From: Arenibacter sp. ARW7G5Y1
Lineage (GTDB): Bacteria; Bacteroidota; Bacteroidia; Flavobacteriales; Flavobacteriaceae
Reading direction: 5' to 3'
DNA: 64,000 nucleotides
NCBI RefSeq assembly: GCF_003201775.1
Contig: NZ_QJJZ01000015.1
Span: 62,001 to 126,000, forward strand
Under the pieces are notes generated by a model. The model was not told where the DNA came from. It did no database searches and was given only the letters and a program-made list of their open reading frames with translations. The first letter of the stretch is position 1. Every line of letters begins with the position of its first letter. Of this stretch, positions 30,415 to 35,271 are shown in pieces. Position numbers and translations under genes: made by a program.

Positions 30415-31764
30415 CTAAAGTAAGGTTAAAGGTTCTTCATTCCCGTCATCATCATCCTCGGCTCTTTTCAGGAGAGAATCGGGAATGGATTTTTTTGCTT
30501 TGGCGCCCATTTTTTTTAATTTCTCTATACTGGTAATTATATTTCCCCTACCGTCGACCAATTTGTTCATAGCTCCCTTATATTCGGATTTTGCTTCATC
30601 CATTTTTTTGCCAACCTTCATCAAATCGCCAACAAAACCTTCAAACTTATCATATAAGGCTCCCGCCTGACGGGCAATTTCAATGGCATTGCGTTGCTGT
30701 TTTTCATTGTTCCACATGGTATCTATAGTCCGTAGGGTAGCCAATAGGGTGGAAGGGGTTACTATGATAATGTTCTGCTCAAAAGCTTTGTTGTACAGGT
30801 TGTTATCGTTGTTTATTGCAATGGCAAATGCAGGTTCTATGGGAACGAACATAAGTACAAAATCCGGACTCTCCATTTCATAAAGGTCCTCATATTTTTT
30901 TGCTGATAGCTGGTCCACATGCCTCCTGAGGGAATTGATATGATCTTTAAGGAATTTATCCTTTAGCTCATCCTCGGCATTTACATAACGTTCATAATCC
31001 GTAAGGGAGACCTTGGAATCTACGATCATCTTTTTGCCGTCGGGCAGGTTTATGATCACATCGGGTAGCACCCGACTTCCATCTTCTCGGGTAAAACTTT
31101 GTTGTACCGTATATTCACGATCCTTTTCCAAGCCCGACTTTTCCAGAACGCGTTCCAATACCAATTCGCCCCAATTGCCCTGCATCTTACTGTCCCCTTT
31201 TAGGGCCTTGGTAAGGTTTTCCGCCTCTTGGGTTATTTTAAGGTTTTGTGTTTGAAGATTGGCCAATTGTTCCTTGAGGGCGGAATGCATGCCTACACTT
31301 TCTTTTTGGCTGTCCTCCACCTTTTTCTCAAAAAGAATTATCTTCTCTTGTAGGGGGGTCAATATATTTTTAATGTTCTCCCTGTTCTGTTCCGTGAATT
31401 TGGTGCTCTTCTCGTCCAAAATTTTATTGGCCAGATTCTCGAATTCCTTGGTAAATTTTTCCTGTAATTTCTCTACCTCCCCTTTTTGTTCCCGATTTTT
31501 GAGGTCCAAATTTTCCATTTCTGCCTGATAACGGACTATTTTATTCCCCAATTGCTCCTTTTCGGATTGTAATTGCGCTTTCTGCTCCTCGGCATCGATA
31601 AGCCTCTGCTCCAAGGTGCTGAGGTTTGCTCTCAATTGTTGTTCGCGTTCCAAAAGGGCGCTTTGACTGGATTTTGTTTTTAGATTTTGGATATAATTCC
31701 CTAAGAAATATCCAATTGCCAGGCCAACTATGGCAAGGACTGCATATACTAGCAATTCATTCAT
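30415..31764 (-). CDS. rmuC: RmuC-family DNA recombination protein
   Basis: 449 aa. N-terminal membrane helix (about 4-22), a long coiled coil (about 30-170), and the nuclease-like RmuC domain (about 190-400; GNWGELVLERVLEKSGLEKD, PDVIINLPDGKKMIVDSKV, FVLMFVPIEPAF). RmuC limits inversions at short repeats. Directly upstream of the two-gene thioesterase operon and next to the reverse transcriptase island. Confidence 0.95.
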   Translation of the reverse strand: MNELLVYAVLAIVGLAIGYFLGNYIQNLKTKSSQSALLEREQQLRANLSTLEQRLIDAEEQKAQLQSEKEQLGNKIVRYQAEMENLDLKNREQKGEVEKLQEKFTKEFENLANKILDEKSTKFTEQNRENIKNILTPLQEKIILFEKKVEDSQKESVGMHSALKEQLANLQTQNLKITQEAENLTKALKGDSKMQGNWGELVLERVLEKSGLEKDREYTVQQSFTREDGSRVLPDVIINLPDGKKMIVDSKVSLTDYERYVNAEDELKDKFLKDHINSLRRHVDQLSAKKYEDLYEMESPDFVLMFVPIEPAFAIAINNDNNLYNKAFEQNIIIVTPSTLLATLRTIDTMWNNEKQQRNAIEIARQAGALYDKFEGFVGDLMKVGKKMDEAKSEYKGAMNKLVDGRGNIITSIEKLKKMGAKAKKSIPDSLLKRAEDDDDGNEEPLTLL

Positions 31765-31812
31765 GTTAATGATTTAATATAATATGTTAAAAGTAAATAA
31801 ATAATAAGGAAT

Positions 31813-33330
31813 TTATTCAGATAAAGTTTGGTTTGAGTTAGAGAAATCATATTTCAGTATGGTCTTTTGTAGAATTTTCCAATGATTTTTTACTTGTCTT
31901 TTTATCTCAGGTGCTTCTAGTTCTTCAGATGCCTTGTAGGCATATTTTAGGTAATTACCTCTGAATTTTCTCCAAAATGATTTAGTTATCGGTTGGCCAT
32001 TTTTATATATTGTTCTTTTCGCAGGCAATTGTCTTGCTTTAACCCCCTTAAAAGTGAATAATCTATATAACTTTCTTTTATAAAGTGGAGCTTCATCTAA
32101 AAGATATTTTTCCTTGATACTTTCAACCCTTTTATGCTTTCGTTTAACAGTTTGCTTCATTTCCCTGTAAAAATTAGCCAGGTTCTTAGATTTGATTAAA
32201 GTTTGATAGCCATAGAATTCAAATCCTAAATAGTTTAGTGGTAAATTTTCTCGTAAAGCACCAGAATTAGTAATTCTAAAGGATTGCAGTCTATTTTTGT
32301 GGATTTTAAAAAGTGTTTTTTCAGTTTTTTCTAAGGATATTTTTAGTTCAAGTTTCTCAATTTCTTTTATTATATAATCTTTAACTAGTTTTATTTGATT
32401 CTCTTTACATAGAACGATAATATCATCTGAATATCTTCTGTAAAAAACATCATTTTTAATAGAAAGTACATTGATAATAGCCTCATCAAAGGATAACATA
32501 TAAATGTTTGCAAGTAGGGCGCTAATGGGCAGGCCTTGCGGAATTCCGATAAGCTGTTTTCTGTTATTTTTATTTTGATTTTTATATATGGTAATGGAAG
32601 AATCTAAAAGATGTTCTATTTTTTCAAAGAAAGTATGCGTACCTGTCTTTTTATGTTTTGATAATTCTTTTTCATCAAAATGGCCTTTTTTAGTCTTTAG
32701 ATCGTTCAGTTTTACATAAGAAAAACGTGTGGCAGATTTAAAAACATTAAAATGGTCTTTTGGTAAGGTTTTCTTTTTTAAAATTTTAGCCCAAGCTAAT
32801 TTTAGCATTTGATGATTAAGAGTAGGGAAAAAGTTTTCAATGTCCAAAACCAATGAAACACAGTTTTCTCTTCGTCTTATTTCTTCAAAAACATCTTTGG
32901 CAAAATGGACGTTATTTTTAAATTTTAGATTATCATCTGACCTAATTTGTCGATAAGCGGTAATAGCCCCTGATAGCAATGGGCTTTTGTTAATATATTC
33001 TTCATACTTAGGGGTTAATATTTCCTGCGCATAATAAGAATAAATATGTGCATCGATATGTGTAGCATATAAAATTTTTCGAATTTTGACATTTGAAATT
33101 ATTCTACCGTCTTTTAATTTTTTATGCGAGCGCTTTATTTCATTTTCGAAGTTAGATTCTTTGTATCGTCTTTGTTTAATTTCCTTAAAAATGAGAGGTA
33201 AGAAAGAATGTCTCGATACTTTATTCTGGTCCGAAACATAATGTTTGATTCTTATTCTTTTTGATCGCGGGGTCTTATTAGAAAAGTGAGGATACCCCCT
33301 GTCTTTAAACCAATCTTTTGTTTTCTTCAT
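31813..33330 (-). CDS. Reverse transcriptase, unassigned group (candidate defence RT)
   Basis: 505 aa. RT motifs in order: LVLDIENFFPTLNH (motif A, catalytic Asp about 163), GIPQGLPISALLANIYM (motif B, 262-278), YRRYSDDIIVLC (motif C, YSDD 300-303), then LEKTEKTLF and LNYLGFEFYG (366-375). All three catalytic Asp are intact. N-terminal extension of about 85 residues starts KDWFKDRGYPHFS; a basic C-terminal region of about 130 residues (KRKHKRVESIKEKY, RKFRGNYLKYAYKA) has no maturase X or endonuclease signature. Codons are strikingly AT-rich versus rmuC, pointing to transfer. Single RT genes with an adjacent noncoding RNA include defence systems DRT2 and DRT9; I cannot assign it to either. Confidence 0.9.
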   Translation of the reverse strand: MKKTKDWFKDRGYPHFSNKTPRSKRIRIKHYVSDQNKVSRHSFLPLIFKEIKQRRYKESNFENEIKRSHKKLKDGRIISNVKIRKILYATHIDAHIYSYYAQEILTPKYEEYINKSPLLSGAITAYRQIRSDDNLKFKNNVHFAKDVFEEIRRRENCVSLVLDIENFFPTLNHQMLKLAWAKILKKKTLPKDHFNVFKSATRFSYVKLNDLKTKKGHFDEKELSKHKKTGTHTFFEKIEHLLDSSITIYKNQNKNNRKQLIGIPQGLPISALLANIYMLSFDEAIINVLSIKNDVFYRRYSDDIIVLCKENQIKLVKDYIIKEIEKLELKISLEKTEKTLFKIHKNRLQSFRITNSGALRENLPLNYLGFEFYGYQTLIKSKNLANFYREMKQTVKRKHKRVESIKEKYLLDEAPLYKRKLYRLFTFKGVKARQLPAKRTIYKNGQPITKSFWRKFRGNYLKYAYKASEELEAPEIKRQVKNHWKILQKTILKYDFSNSNQTLSE

Positions 33331-33344
33331 AATAAAAAAAGTAA

Positions 33345-33660
33345 GGGAAGTTCTCGCGCGTATTTATAACAAAATACAACGTAACGTCTCCAAAGACTGA
33401 ACCATTAGCCGAATTCTCGACTCACGCTGAATCTGTACGTACCTTTGCCTTTAAATCTGGCGCAGGTGATAAATATAATCCTAACAGTTGTCCATATGAT
33501 TGTAATAATCACATTAGCTTGGGGTAAGCCCCGAATGCTTATTAAACTTGTAGAAATAATACTTATGTTTCTTTCATTAAGCCTAGACCCAACGTTGGGG
33601 ATTTGGTTAATGAAAGAAATTTACAACTTTCCTAATCTCCGTATTTATTATCCCTTTTAA
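33345..33660 (-). ncRNA. Candidate structured RNA upstream of the reverse transcriptase
   Basis: On the RT strand the 468 bp before its ATG has no credible ORF but strong secondary structure. A perfect 13-bp stem TTTCTTTCATTAA / TTAATGAAAGAAA (33619-33607 with 33580-33568) encloses a 26-base loop that itself contains the palindrome CCCAACGTTGGG (33588-33599). A second hairpin GGGG-CTTA-CCCC flanked by CATT/AATG lies near 33505-33540. The boundaries are a guess. By analogy with RT systems it could be a template or guide RNA, or a regulatory leader. Confidence 0.4.
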
Positions 33661-33682
33661 ATAGAAAAGGTCGGATTAAGCG

Positions 33683-33700
33683 ATTAATCAATTGATTAAT
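33683..33700. promoter_or_regulatory. 18-bp palindrome in the divergent promoter region
   Basis: ATTAATCAATTGATTAAT is a perfect palindrome between the RT/RNA unit (minus) and the 224-aa gene (plus), about 100 bp before the latter. Suitable as an operator for a dimeric regulator; no regulator is encoded in the island. Confidence 0.35.
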
Positions 33701-33798
33701 ACGATAGCTCAACAAATGTTATATTTCTTTAACTAAAGAACTTCCTTACTTATTCGTAAATGTAAGATTTTATTCTATTTTTATAAAAAAAATCTAAT

Positions 33799-34473
33799 AT
33801 GTCAGCATTGTCAAATTTTGAGATTGGAGATATTGTAACATTAAAGACCCATCCTTTATTGAATAATGATGCAAAAAAAATTATAGAATTTCCAGCTCAA
33901 GTTCCTCCATTAATGTTGGTAAAGGAAGTTCTAATTGAAAGAAAAGAAAAGAAAAAGATATACAGTGATGAGATTGAAAATGCAAGGATATCTGACCTAG
34001 TGAAATATCTTTGCATATATTTTAATGGTAATAAAGGGGAGTTTGTAGAAGTAACACTTTATCATTCTTTATTAGAAAGTTACAAAAAGTTAAAATATTA
34101 TAGAGAATTTGAAAAAGATAAAAAGGTAACAATTGAACTAGACGATCAGTTAATTCCTGAAGTTTTGAGGTACAGTTTAATTTCTGAATATGAATATGGA
34201 AAAGTAGTTCAGTTAAAGACTAAGAAACTGGAACAAAGAAAATCATATAGTGGAGCTGGTGAAAGAATCCCTGGCGCAACCTTTCAAACTCCGGATTTTT
34301 TGCTGACGGGAGTAAAAAATGAATCACAAACGGATTTATATTATCCGGATGGTAAGACAAAAAGAAAAATCACTAAACAACTGTATAAAATAATGTGGTT
34401 TAATAGCATTCAACAAAAATTTAGTGAATACTTCTTACCGAAGGAATTTTTAGTAGAAGGTTTAGAGATGTGA
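33799..34473 (+). CDS. Unknown protein of the reverse transcriptase island
   Basis: 224 aa, AT-rich like the RT. It begins with a possible small beta-barrel segment (FEIGDIVTLKTHPLL ... PPLMLVKEVLIE ... YLCIYFNGNKGEFVEVTLYHSLL) that recalls GDVV-x-LKS-type YodC-like domains, but the match is weak. A basic stretch with KTKKLEQRKSYSGAGERIPG, then a C-terminal part FNSIQQKFSEYFLPKEF. No signal peptide or membrane helix. Divergent from the RT; convergent with btuD, whose stop lies 3 bp away. Could be an RT partner or unrelated cargo. Confidence 0.7.
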   Translation: MSALSNFEIGDIVTLKTHPLLNNDAKKIIEFPAQVPPLMLVKEVLIERKEKKKIYSDEIENARISDLVKYLCIYFNGNKGEFVEVTLYHSLLESYKKLKYYREFEKDKKVTIELDDQLIPEVLRYSLISEYEYGKVVQLKTKKLEQRKSYSGAGERIPGATFQTPDFLLTGVKNESQTDLYYPDGKTKRKITKQLYKIMWFNSIQQKFSEYFLPKEFLVEGLEM

Positions 34474-34476
34474 TAT

Positions 34477-35271
34477 TTACTTATTAACTCTAAAAGAACC
34501 CGTTTGTGCATCGAAAGTAATGGTGTCTATAGGGAACAGATTTTCAAAACTTTTCTTTTGTATCAATTCGCATGGAGATCCAAAGCTACTCTGGTTTTCT
34601 TTTAGTATCAATATTTTATCGCACAACTGAATCGCAATTTCAATTTCATGGGTAGTAAAGAGGATAGTCTTGTTGGTTTCGTGGGCAATGGTTTTGAGTA
34701 ATTTTAGTATTTGTACCTTATGGTATAGGTCCAGATGCGTCGTAGGCTCATCCAGTAAAATTAGCTGGGTGTCCTGGGCTATGGCCCTGGCGATCATTAC
34801 ACGCTGCAATTGTCCGTCACTGAGTTCATAGCATTTTTTGGACTTTAATGCTGAAATACGGACCATGTCCAGGGCCATGGATATTTTGTCATTATCTTTT
34901 TTGGTAAGTGTTCCCAGCCAATTGGTGTATGGTTGTCTACCTAGACTGACCAGCTCCAACACCGTTAGGTTTTTGGAGGCGATGGGTTCTGTTAGTACCA
35001 CACTAATTTCCGATGCCAGCTCTTGAATGGAATGATGTTCCAAGGACTCTTTGTTCAAAGTAATCTTGCCGGACAATTTGGGCTGTACATTGCCAAGTGT
35101 GCGCAATAAGGTTGATTTTCCAATCCCATTAACGCCAACTATGGAGGCGAGTTCTCCTTTAAATAGGGTAAAATTAATATCCCGGGCAATGCAGGATTGT
35201 TGCTTGCCGTTGGAATAACCTATGCTTAGGTTTTCCGTTTTAAGGGCAATATGTGGAGTAAAATTATCTAT
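34477..35271 (-). CDS. btuD: Vitamin B12-type ABC transporter ATPase, no ordinary start codon
   Basis: 264 aa as written. Walker A GVNGIGKST, Q-loop near LTEPIASKNLTVLELVSLGRQPY, signature YELSDGQLQRVMIARAIAQD (LSDGQ), Walker B LILLDEPTTHLD and the switch His in LFTTHE are intact, so the ATPase should work. The open frame runs to a stop at 35293-35295 but holds no ATG, GTG or TTG before Walker A; I place the start at the ATA at 35271 (an ATT at 35283 is the alternative), where a mutated ATG would fit family length. An internal TTG at 35106 would lose Walker A. Works with the permease at 35372. Confidence 0.85.
   Translation of the reverse strand: MDNFTPHIALKTENLSIGYSNGKQQSCIARDINFTLFKGELASIVGVNGIGKSTLLRTLGNVQPKLSGKITLNKESLEHHSIQELASEISVVLTEPIASKNLTVLELVSLGRQPYTNWLGTLTKKDNDKISMALDMVRISALKSKKCYELSDGQLQRVMIARAIAQDTQLILLDEPTTHLDLYHKVQILKLLKTIAHETNKTILFTTHEIEIAIQLCDKILILKENQSSFGSPCELIQKKSFENLFPIDTITFDAQTGSFRVNK

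Follow-up and report, generated by a model that had tools for sequence, protein, structure and literature searches.

A divergent DRT2 reverse transcriptase locus of Arenibacter with a YodC-family partner and an upstream RNA predicted to hide a neo frame

The locus and its reverse transcriptase

The window analysed in this study is a stretch of 64,000 nucleotides (nt) from Arenibacter sp. ARW7G5Y1 (contig NZ_QJJZ01000015.1, positions 62,001 to 126,000 of the forward strand), and all coordinates count from its first letter. Within it lies an island with a G+C content of 26–34%, compared with ~37–47% in most of the flanking windows, which carries a reverse transcriptase (RT) gene, a divergent gene for a YodC-family protein and, in the 468 bp gap between the two (33331–33798, on the 5′ side of the RT gene), a noncoding RNA (ncRNA). 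The RT and its partner belong to families that are already catalogued; the new part is the ncRNA in the gap, together with the neo reading frame that we predict to be hidden in it. The three components are:

31813–33330, minus strand: DRT2 (UG2) RT, 505 amino acids, with Asp163 and YSDD at residues 300–303 (PADLOC, NCBIfam, and PDB matches)
33343–33751, minus strand: ncRNA of ~409 nt (alignment of 15 relatives and covariation; ends inferred from conservation)
33799–34473, plus strand: YodC-family partner (RTasYodC), 224 amino acids, a possible regulator (PADLOC match)

An earlier note, prepared from the letters of the window, had described an intact RT, and the gene indeed encodes 505 residues with Asp163 and the YSDD motif in place. 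The note also proposed an undescribed RT subtype that common RT classes do not explain, an idea that did not survive comparison with the profile collections. The best PADLOC match is Drt2 (2.9e-134, 446.8 bits), with the next family, RT_UG17, at 88.9 bits, and Drt2 is likewise the best NCBIfam match (364.8 bits); DRT2 was one of the two systems with which the note had compared its RT. At E 1e-5 or better, only three PDB entries matched, all of them RTs (9lje, 9c0i, and 9lv7; E 1.4e-50 to 3.5e-48), and 9c0i and 9lv7 carry the name Drt2. A Pfam scan found no second domain in the RT. On these matches, we classify the RT as a divergent member of DRT2/UG2 rather than of an undescribed class. Two other assignments, dismissed by the note as well, were rejected on NCBIfam scores far below the cut-offs: the group II intron RT model gave 67.6 bits against 300, and St85, the sole retron model among the NCBIfam matches, gave 55.9 bits against 235. 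The note's interpretation is thus partly supported: its broader idea of a cellular RT of the defence type, accompanied by a template-like ncRNA and inserted as an island, appears to fit the locus, and the undescribed class does not.

Relatives were collected from two overlapping draws of genomes, both of which include the window's own genome. The RT was matched at E ≤ 1e-20 in 27 of 397 family-level genomes and at E ≤ 1e-40 in 13 of 395 order-level genomes, and 5 further loci were taken from the genome collection. Fifteen loci make up the close clade, namely L001 (the window), L002, L007–L018, and L066. In a maximum-likelihood tree confined to 40 DRT2-type RTs, two of them non-Bacteroidota, the 20 rows with YodC or the longer WYL-YodC partner form one group (support 100/99) with two supported subgroups, and L005, which has no YodC, sits on a long branch beside it (88/79). 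Viral contigs yielded no relative with this query, and plasmids (25 records) and phages (3 records) yielded only RTs of <60% identity; no YodC was found on the plasmids.

A structured ncRNA immediately upstream of the RT gene

The noncoding, structured character that the earlier note had ascribed to the 468 bp gap was confirmed, as its RT strand holds no open reading frame (ORF) of at least 50 amino acids and the alignment uncovered a covarying RNA of ~409 nt. The RNA starts 47 nt from the YodC start codon and ends 12 nt ahead of that of the RT. Aligned upstream regions consist of a hypervariable middle between conserved ends. The elements of the RNA and its presumptive promoter are:

33736–33745, minus strand: helix 1 (closing helix), 5′ arm, 94.7% of cells paired
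33346–33355, minus strand: helix 1, 3′ arm (covariation and letters)
33674–33680, minus strand: helix 4, 5′ arm, whose partner is the GATTAG side immediately ahead of the template
33757–33764, minus strand: TACATTTA, likely -7 element (TAnnTTTG-like) of the promoter for the ncRNA and RT (motif found by eye)

Across the 15 sequences, the structure comprises 45 pairs in 7 helices, with the middle of the RNA left unpaired in the test, and 94.0% of cells are paired, compared with 35–52% when the structure is slid along the alignment. As this alignment also served to derive the structure, the paired fraction is favoured, and it is the two-sided changes that are telling: these occur in 28 of the 45 pairs, against a mean of 15.0 (sd 2.0) in shuffles, none of 500 of which scored as high. 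In helix 4, all cells (100%) are paired and 5 of 7 pairs show two-sided changes. Promoters of the Bacteroidota have the consensus TTTG, ~20 nt, TAnnTTTG, and directly upstream of the ncRNA, TAnnTTT(A/G) was seen by eye in 14 of the 15 relatives; L017 has TAAATTAG. Searching the island against Rfam yielded 4 matches (E 2.8–4.6), all below their gathering scores. By its covariation, the leader is a structured ncRNA immediately upstream of the RT, shared by the fifteen loci.

A predicted template with an open antisense frame

Missing from the earlier note's account of the leader was a stop-free, multiple-of-three template open on its antisense strand. In KpnDRT2, the excerpts of PMC12039810 and PMC11100668 describe a template between two ACA motifs that is copied in tandem, has a length that is a multiple of 3, and is open in antisense through the junction. 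By analogy, we placed the template ends of the close clade from conserved anchors: GTA-1 was set at a constant distance, 13 nt beyond the point where the GATTAG side of helix 4 begins, and GTA-2 lies within the 3′ scaffold. For the window, this predicts:

33439–33624, minus strand: template or repeat unit of 186 nt, from GTA-1 to just before GTA-2 (ends inferred)
33622–33624, minus strand: GTA-1, predicted template-jump motif (analogue of ACA-1)
33436–33438, minus strand: GTA-2, predicted re-priming motif (analogue of ACA-2)
33439–33624, plus strand: predicted neo frame on the strand opposite the ncRNA, with 62 codons in each repeat and its first in-frame ATG at 33496

GTA-1 is identical to GTA-2 in 12 of the 15 relatives, the pair in L007 being GTT/GTT. 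Template lengths range from 171 to 189 nt and are divisible by 3 in 14 of 15 cases, whereas the scaffolds of the same RNAs are spread over the residue classes (7/4/4 for the 5′ scaffold and 8/4/3 for the 3′). When concatenated, all 14 multiple-of-3 units have exactly one stop-free antisense frame. For the 13 units known first, the chance of an open antisense frame in shuffles was 0.004–0.044 each, and the sense strand was open in 2 of 13. L066, which was found later with the offsets already fixed, gave a unit of 186 nt with one antisense and no sense frame. The 15 units sort into seven similarity groups, between which no match was found at E 1e-3; the evidence is therefore repeated, though not fully independent. 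In the linear 420 nt upstream regions, all 15 loci of the close clade had a longest antisense run that exceeded shuffles (P<0.05), and for the sense strand this held in 3 of 15.

With GRAVY values of 1.35 in the window and 0.48–1.35 across 13 units, the predicted product of the repeat is hydrophobic, and one window repeat was modelled as three helices (mean pLDDT 79.0, pTM 0.46), a result for a single hydrophobic sequence with no shuffled control. Together, template length and antisense frame form the predicted signature of neo, the repeat gene of DRT2.

Three other Bacteroidota DRT2 clades were treated with hand-picked anchors: A (L025, L026, L030, L031, and L032; 5 loci), B (L003, L023, and L029; 3 loci), and C (L006, L021, and L022; 3 loci). 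L005, L024, L027, L028, L034, L064, and L065 were left out of template delimitation. Anchor-to-anchor lengths in clade A are 119, 131, 119, 119, and 122, all equal modulo 3, and its five loci are all antisense-open at 1285 of 1400 boundary choices versus 0 for sense. Clade C has lengths of 146, 143, and 146, again equal modulo 3, and is antisense-open at 1302 of 1400 choices versus 0. In clade B, 1249 boundary choices are open in antisense versus 645 in sense; all three of its lengths are 137, so length is uninformative. Neo therefore probably extends to Bacteroidota DRT2 systems that lack YodC. Among 16 loci of this type, the linear test gave antisense runs at P<0.05 in 8 and sense runs in 2. 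The five WYL-YodC loci, in which the template was not delimitable, gave antisense P values of 0.000, 0.017, 0.283, 0.060, and 0.050 (2/5 versus 0/5 for sense). As a proteobacterial control, Psychrobacter L069 yielded one ACA..ACA unit of 105 nt, open in antisense, among all pairs scanned; no E. coli match to its gene was found.

A predicted promoter across the repeat junction, and the weight of the evidence for Neo

Concatenated repeats of the window were searched with the pattern TTTG-N17..21-TAnnTTTG, which follows the Bacteroidota consensus. The single best match, at 10 of 10 letters, is TTTG-N20-TACCTTTG, and it spans the junction. Its halves are:

33602–33605, plus strand: TTTG, -33 half of the junction promoter that would be re-formed across repeats
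33440–33447, plus strand: TACCTTTG, -7 half, with a 20 nt spacer once concatenated

Taking all 15 units, 10 have their best match across the junction, where 3.92 would be expected (P 6.6e-4). We predict a Bacteroidota-type promoter that is perfect across the window's repeat junction.

Several observations weigh against a DRT2 system with a neo gene at this locus. The RT scores below the curated cut-off of the NCBIfam Drt2 equivalog NF041746 (364.8 bits against 390), and is therefore not filed under it. GTA-1 differs from GTA-2 in 3 of 15 loci, and kinship makes the per-unit chances non-independent. The unit of L002 (4580–4985) is 181 nt long, the only length in the close clade that 3 does not divide, and its frame is therefore interrupted where repeats would meet; the cause could be an indel, an error of assembly, loss of function of the system, or nucleotides added without a template during the jump. 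Many nearby end choices also give 13 of 13 open frames, for which reason the exact template ends are not unique. Codon-position counts are 107/100/130 over 7 pairs, a weak third-position excess, and there is therefore no clear purifying selection on Neo residues; the open frame and its length are kept more than the residues. The best promoter match lies off the junction in 5 of 15 units (L008–L012), and with one unit per similarity group the junction match falls to 4 of 7 (P=0.037). Finally, of the two proteobacterial control loci, Photobacterium L068 gave no unit of the kind seen in L069.

The weak conservation of Neo-frame residues could also mean that the repeat cDNA has no protein product and is itself the effector, with the template made variable by an arms race; DRT9, which makes homopolymer DNA, and DRT10, which makes tandem-repeat DNA, would be the parallels (excerpts of PMC12632851). 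Such an effector sits poorly with the restriction of multiple-of-3 lengths to the template, with the single stop-free frame that each of the 14 such units has in antisense, with the predicted junction promoter, and with the 8 loci of two further Bacteroidota DRT2 clades whose lengths agree modulo 3 and whose antisense frames are open. We consider it improbable.

The YodC-family partner

The divergent AT-rich gene of the earlier note is present and encodes 224 amino acids, but the "unknown family" assigned to it is in fact catalogued as PADLOC RTasYodC (8e-78; residues 5–221 on positions 4–215 of a 219-position profile). In Pfam and NCBIfam, nothing scored above the cut-offs for the window protein, and an AlphaFold model from a two-row alignment had a mean pLDDT of 29.7. 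YodC adjoins the RT in 15 of 15 close-clade loci, divergently in 11 and co-oriented upstream in L015–L018. In the sister loci L059–L063, the partner is longer, at 377–459 amino acids (399 in L063, counted from a TTG codon). Its gene begins next to the RT gene and diverges from it, and 5 of 5 partners match RTasWYL-YodC at E ≤ 1.2e-90. Thus, all 20 loci of one RT clade have YodC or WYL-YodC next to the RT. At E ≤ 0.01, YodC was found in none of 21 other loci, several of which are duplicates or have short flanks; nor was it found in L064 and L065. RTasYodC was matched in 5 of 395 phylum genomes searched, and in all five (the window's own, G320, G719, G594, and G598) a DRT2-type RT adjoins it.

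One sister protein has sub-threshold Pfam matches to WYL (0.00075) and DUF2158 (0.0012); Pfam found neither in three others. WYL proteins are reported as regulators of defence systems in the excerpts consulted. Because YodC is clade-bound, lies near the ncRNA promoter and is linked to WYL, regulator or sensor is its leading candidate role, one that we hold with modest confidence. A different view would make YodC the effector, or an antitoxin to Neo, which the RT product triggers or relieves. Its tie to the RT clade (20/20) and its place where Neo is predicted would suit that view, which is weakened by the lack of any toxin or enzyme domain above cut-off in the window partner (Pfam and NCBIfam) or in four sister proteins (Pfam), by the sister-clade matches to RTasWYL-YodC, one of them with the WYL similarity, and by the regulatory role reported for WYL proteins. 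We judge it unlikely, if worth keeping in mind. In the open-licence part of PMC, nothing was found on DRT2 with YodC or on DRT2 in the Flavobacteriaceae, and none of the titles and abstract openings screened there dealt with Neo in the Bacteroidota or with YodC beside an RT.

Genomic setting and probable movement of the module

Two genes outside the system flank the island:

30415–31764, minus strand: rmuC, left flank (named as in the earlier note)
34477–35106, minus strand: btuD-like ABC ATPase, right flank; the gene start is probably further upstream than the ORF

The earlier note had placed the island between these genes and suggested comparing the junction with and without it. The ORFs agree with this placement, and empty sites were found: rmuC is present in 18 of 18 same-genus genomes, and in 9 of 9 same-genus loci compared, the window excluded, 67–68 nt separate the rmuC start from the btuD end. 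Since the two genes lie so close together in these loci, insertion of the island between them is supported. The RT was absent from two same-genus genomes searched (G212 and G373). Among 60 family genomes searched, 48 had rmuC; in 29 rmuC loci, the window's own excluded, btuD lies at 41–140 nt in 19, 848–1215 nt off in 3, and beyond reach in 7, including two DRT2 carriers.

Across the close clade, which bears several genus labels, 10 of 15 loci have rmuC next to the RT (window 31765–34476, L002, and L007–L014, where the DRT2-YodC module adjoins rmuC), and btuD fragments were found in 8 of 15, given limited flanks. Identities of RT and RmuC disagree, at 0.56 versus 0.84 between L001 and L014 and 0.74 versus 0.62 between L001 and L007, and the module has therefore probably moved between genomes, yet recurs in one gap, perhaps because the conserved flanking sequences recombine. 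Only two long ORFs occur in the island, those of the RT and YodC, and neither encodes an integrase.

The recurrent position beside rmuC (10/15 loci) might be taken for that of a housekeeping or domesticated RT without a defence role, or of a mobile RT derived from a group II intron. Such an origin is contradicted by the group II score cited above, by the patchy presence of the RT (27 of 397 family genomes at E ≤ 1e-20), by the RT/RmuC discordance (56% vs 84%, L001–L014), and by the lack of any second domain in the RT in the Pfam scan. The housekeeping version was rejected on patchiness and discordance, and we regard the explanation as a whole as extremely improbable.

Some further observations concern these loci. 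In three other genomes (L075, L082, and L096), the rmuC–btuD gap carries other single genes, by eye lipoprotein-like, unknown, and nuclease/phosphatase-like; the gap may therefore be a permissive cargo site. Contig C2 of genome G054 encodes two DRT2-type RTs from different clades (L015 and L034) ~47 kb apart, one adjoining YodC and the other without it. Just upstream of a YodC-less DRT2, an ORF with a YADD-type motif (L026:3562–4113, minus strand) resembles, by eye only, a second, retron-like RT. The proteobacterial DRT2 genes of L068 and L069 are plasmid-borne and near restriction-modification genes.

A proposed mechanism

The RT family, RNA structure, template geometry, open antisense frame, clade-wide partner, and empty sites can be read from the sequences; cDNA synthesis, the junction, the expression and toxicity of Neo, defence, and the role of YodC are what we infer from them. 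We favour, and think it probable, that the locus is a divergent DRT2 abortive-infection system of the Bacteroidota with a Neo mechanism and YodC. The RT would bind the ncRNA transcribed just upstream of its gene and copy the ~186 nt template repeatedly; re-pairing of the nascent TAC end with GTA-2 would allow each jump there from GTA-1. On infection, the tandem cDNA would become double-stranded. Each junction would then unite the -33 TTTG and -7 TACCTTTG, far apart in the genome, into a promoter, and the tandem cDNA would encode, in antisense relative to the ncRNA, a Neo protein that is endless, hydrophobic, and helical. This protein would halt growth of the infected cell, and YodC (WYL-YodC in the sister clade) would most likely restrain the system or sense its trigger. 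For the fuller picture of a Bacteroidota DRT2 lineage with its own Neo gene, GTA jump code, Bacteroidota promoter, and a dedicated YodC or WYL-YodC sensor or brake that times a gene absent from the linear genome, we would give even chances.

If correct, this provides a concrete, testable Neo in a divergent DRT2 clade and a simple rule for finding other Neo genes, namely a multiple-of-3 template with one antisense frame. It also hints that the junction promoter follows the host's own promoter grammar, and the clade-specific partner may explain how a gene this toxic is kept in check.

Comparison with known systems

DRT9 and DRT10 share with the present locus an RT and a template ncRNA, and differ, in the excerpts of PMC12632851, in making homopolymer or tandem-repeat DNA that is protein-primed; the RT here scores 446.8 bits with Drt2 versus 88.9 with UG17, called DRT10 there. 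The PADLOC models RTasYodC and RTasWYL-YodC, matched here, carry the label DRT and a name that we read as RT association only, with function not given. The other Bacteroidota DRT2 clades resemble the window in their open antisense frames and, in A and C, lengths equal modulo 3, and differ in having no YodC in the loci examined, anchor lengths of 119–146 nt, and other flank motifs.

The closest parallel is KpnDRT2/Neo of Klebsiella pneumoniae (UG2), as described in the excerpts of PMC12039810 and PMC11100668. Shared are the RT family, a same-strand ncRNA directly upstream, a variable template in a conserved scaffold, the multiple-of-3 antisense frame, and a short repeat at both template ends; a promoter re-formed at the junction and a hydrophobic product are shared with our prediction. 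The Kpn-type Neo is helical according to Tang et al. (PMC11100668), whereas Wilkinson et al. give low-confidence strand or helix arrays, again going by excerpts. Those from the Tang preprint add that annotating Neo proved more difficult in divergent clades of DRT2 and that other mechanisms were possible. In place of the ACA-1 and ACA-2 flanks, we found GTA or GTT, the same at both ends in 12 of 15 loci, and the locus is therefore not filed in the KpnDRT2-like subset. Compared with KpnDRT2, the ncRNA is ~409 rather than ~280 nt, the repeat 171–189 rather than 111–129 nt, the RT 505 rather than 425 amino acids, and the promoter of the TTTG/TAnnTTTG rather than TTGACA/TATAAT type, and the locus has in addition a YodC partner.

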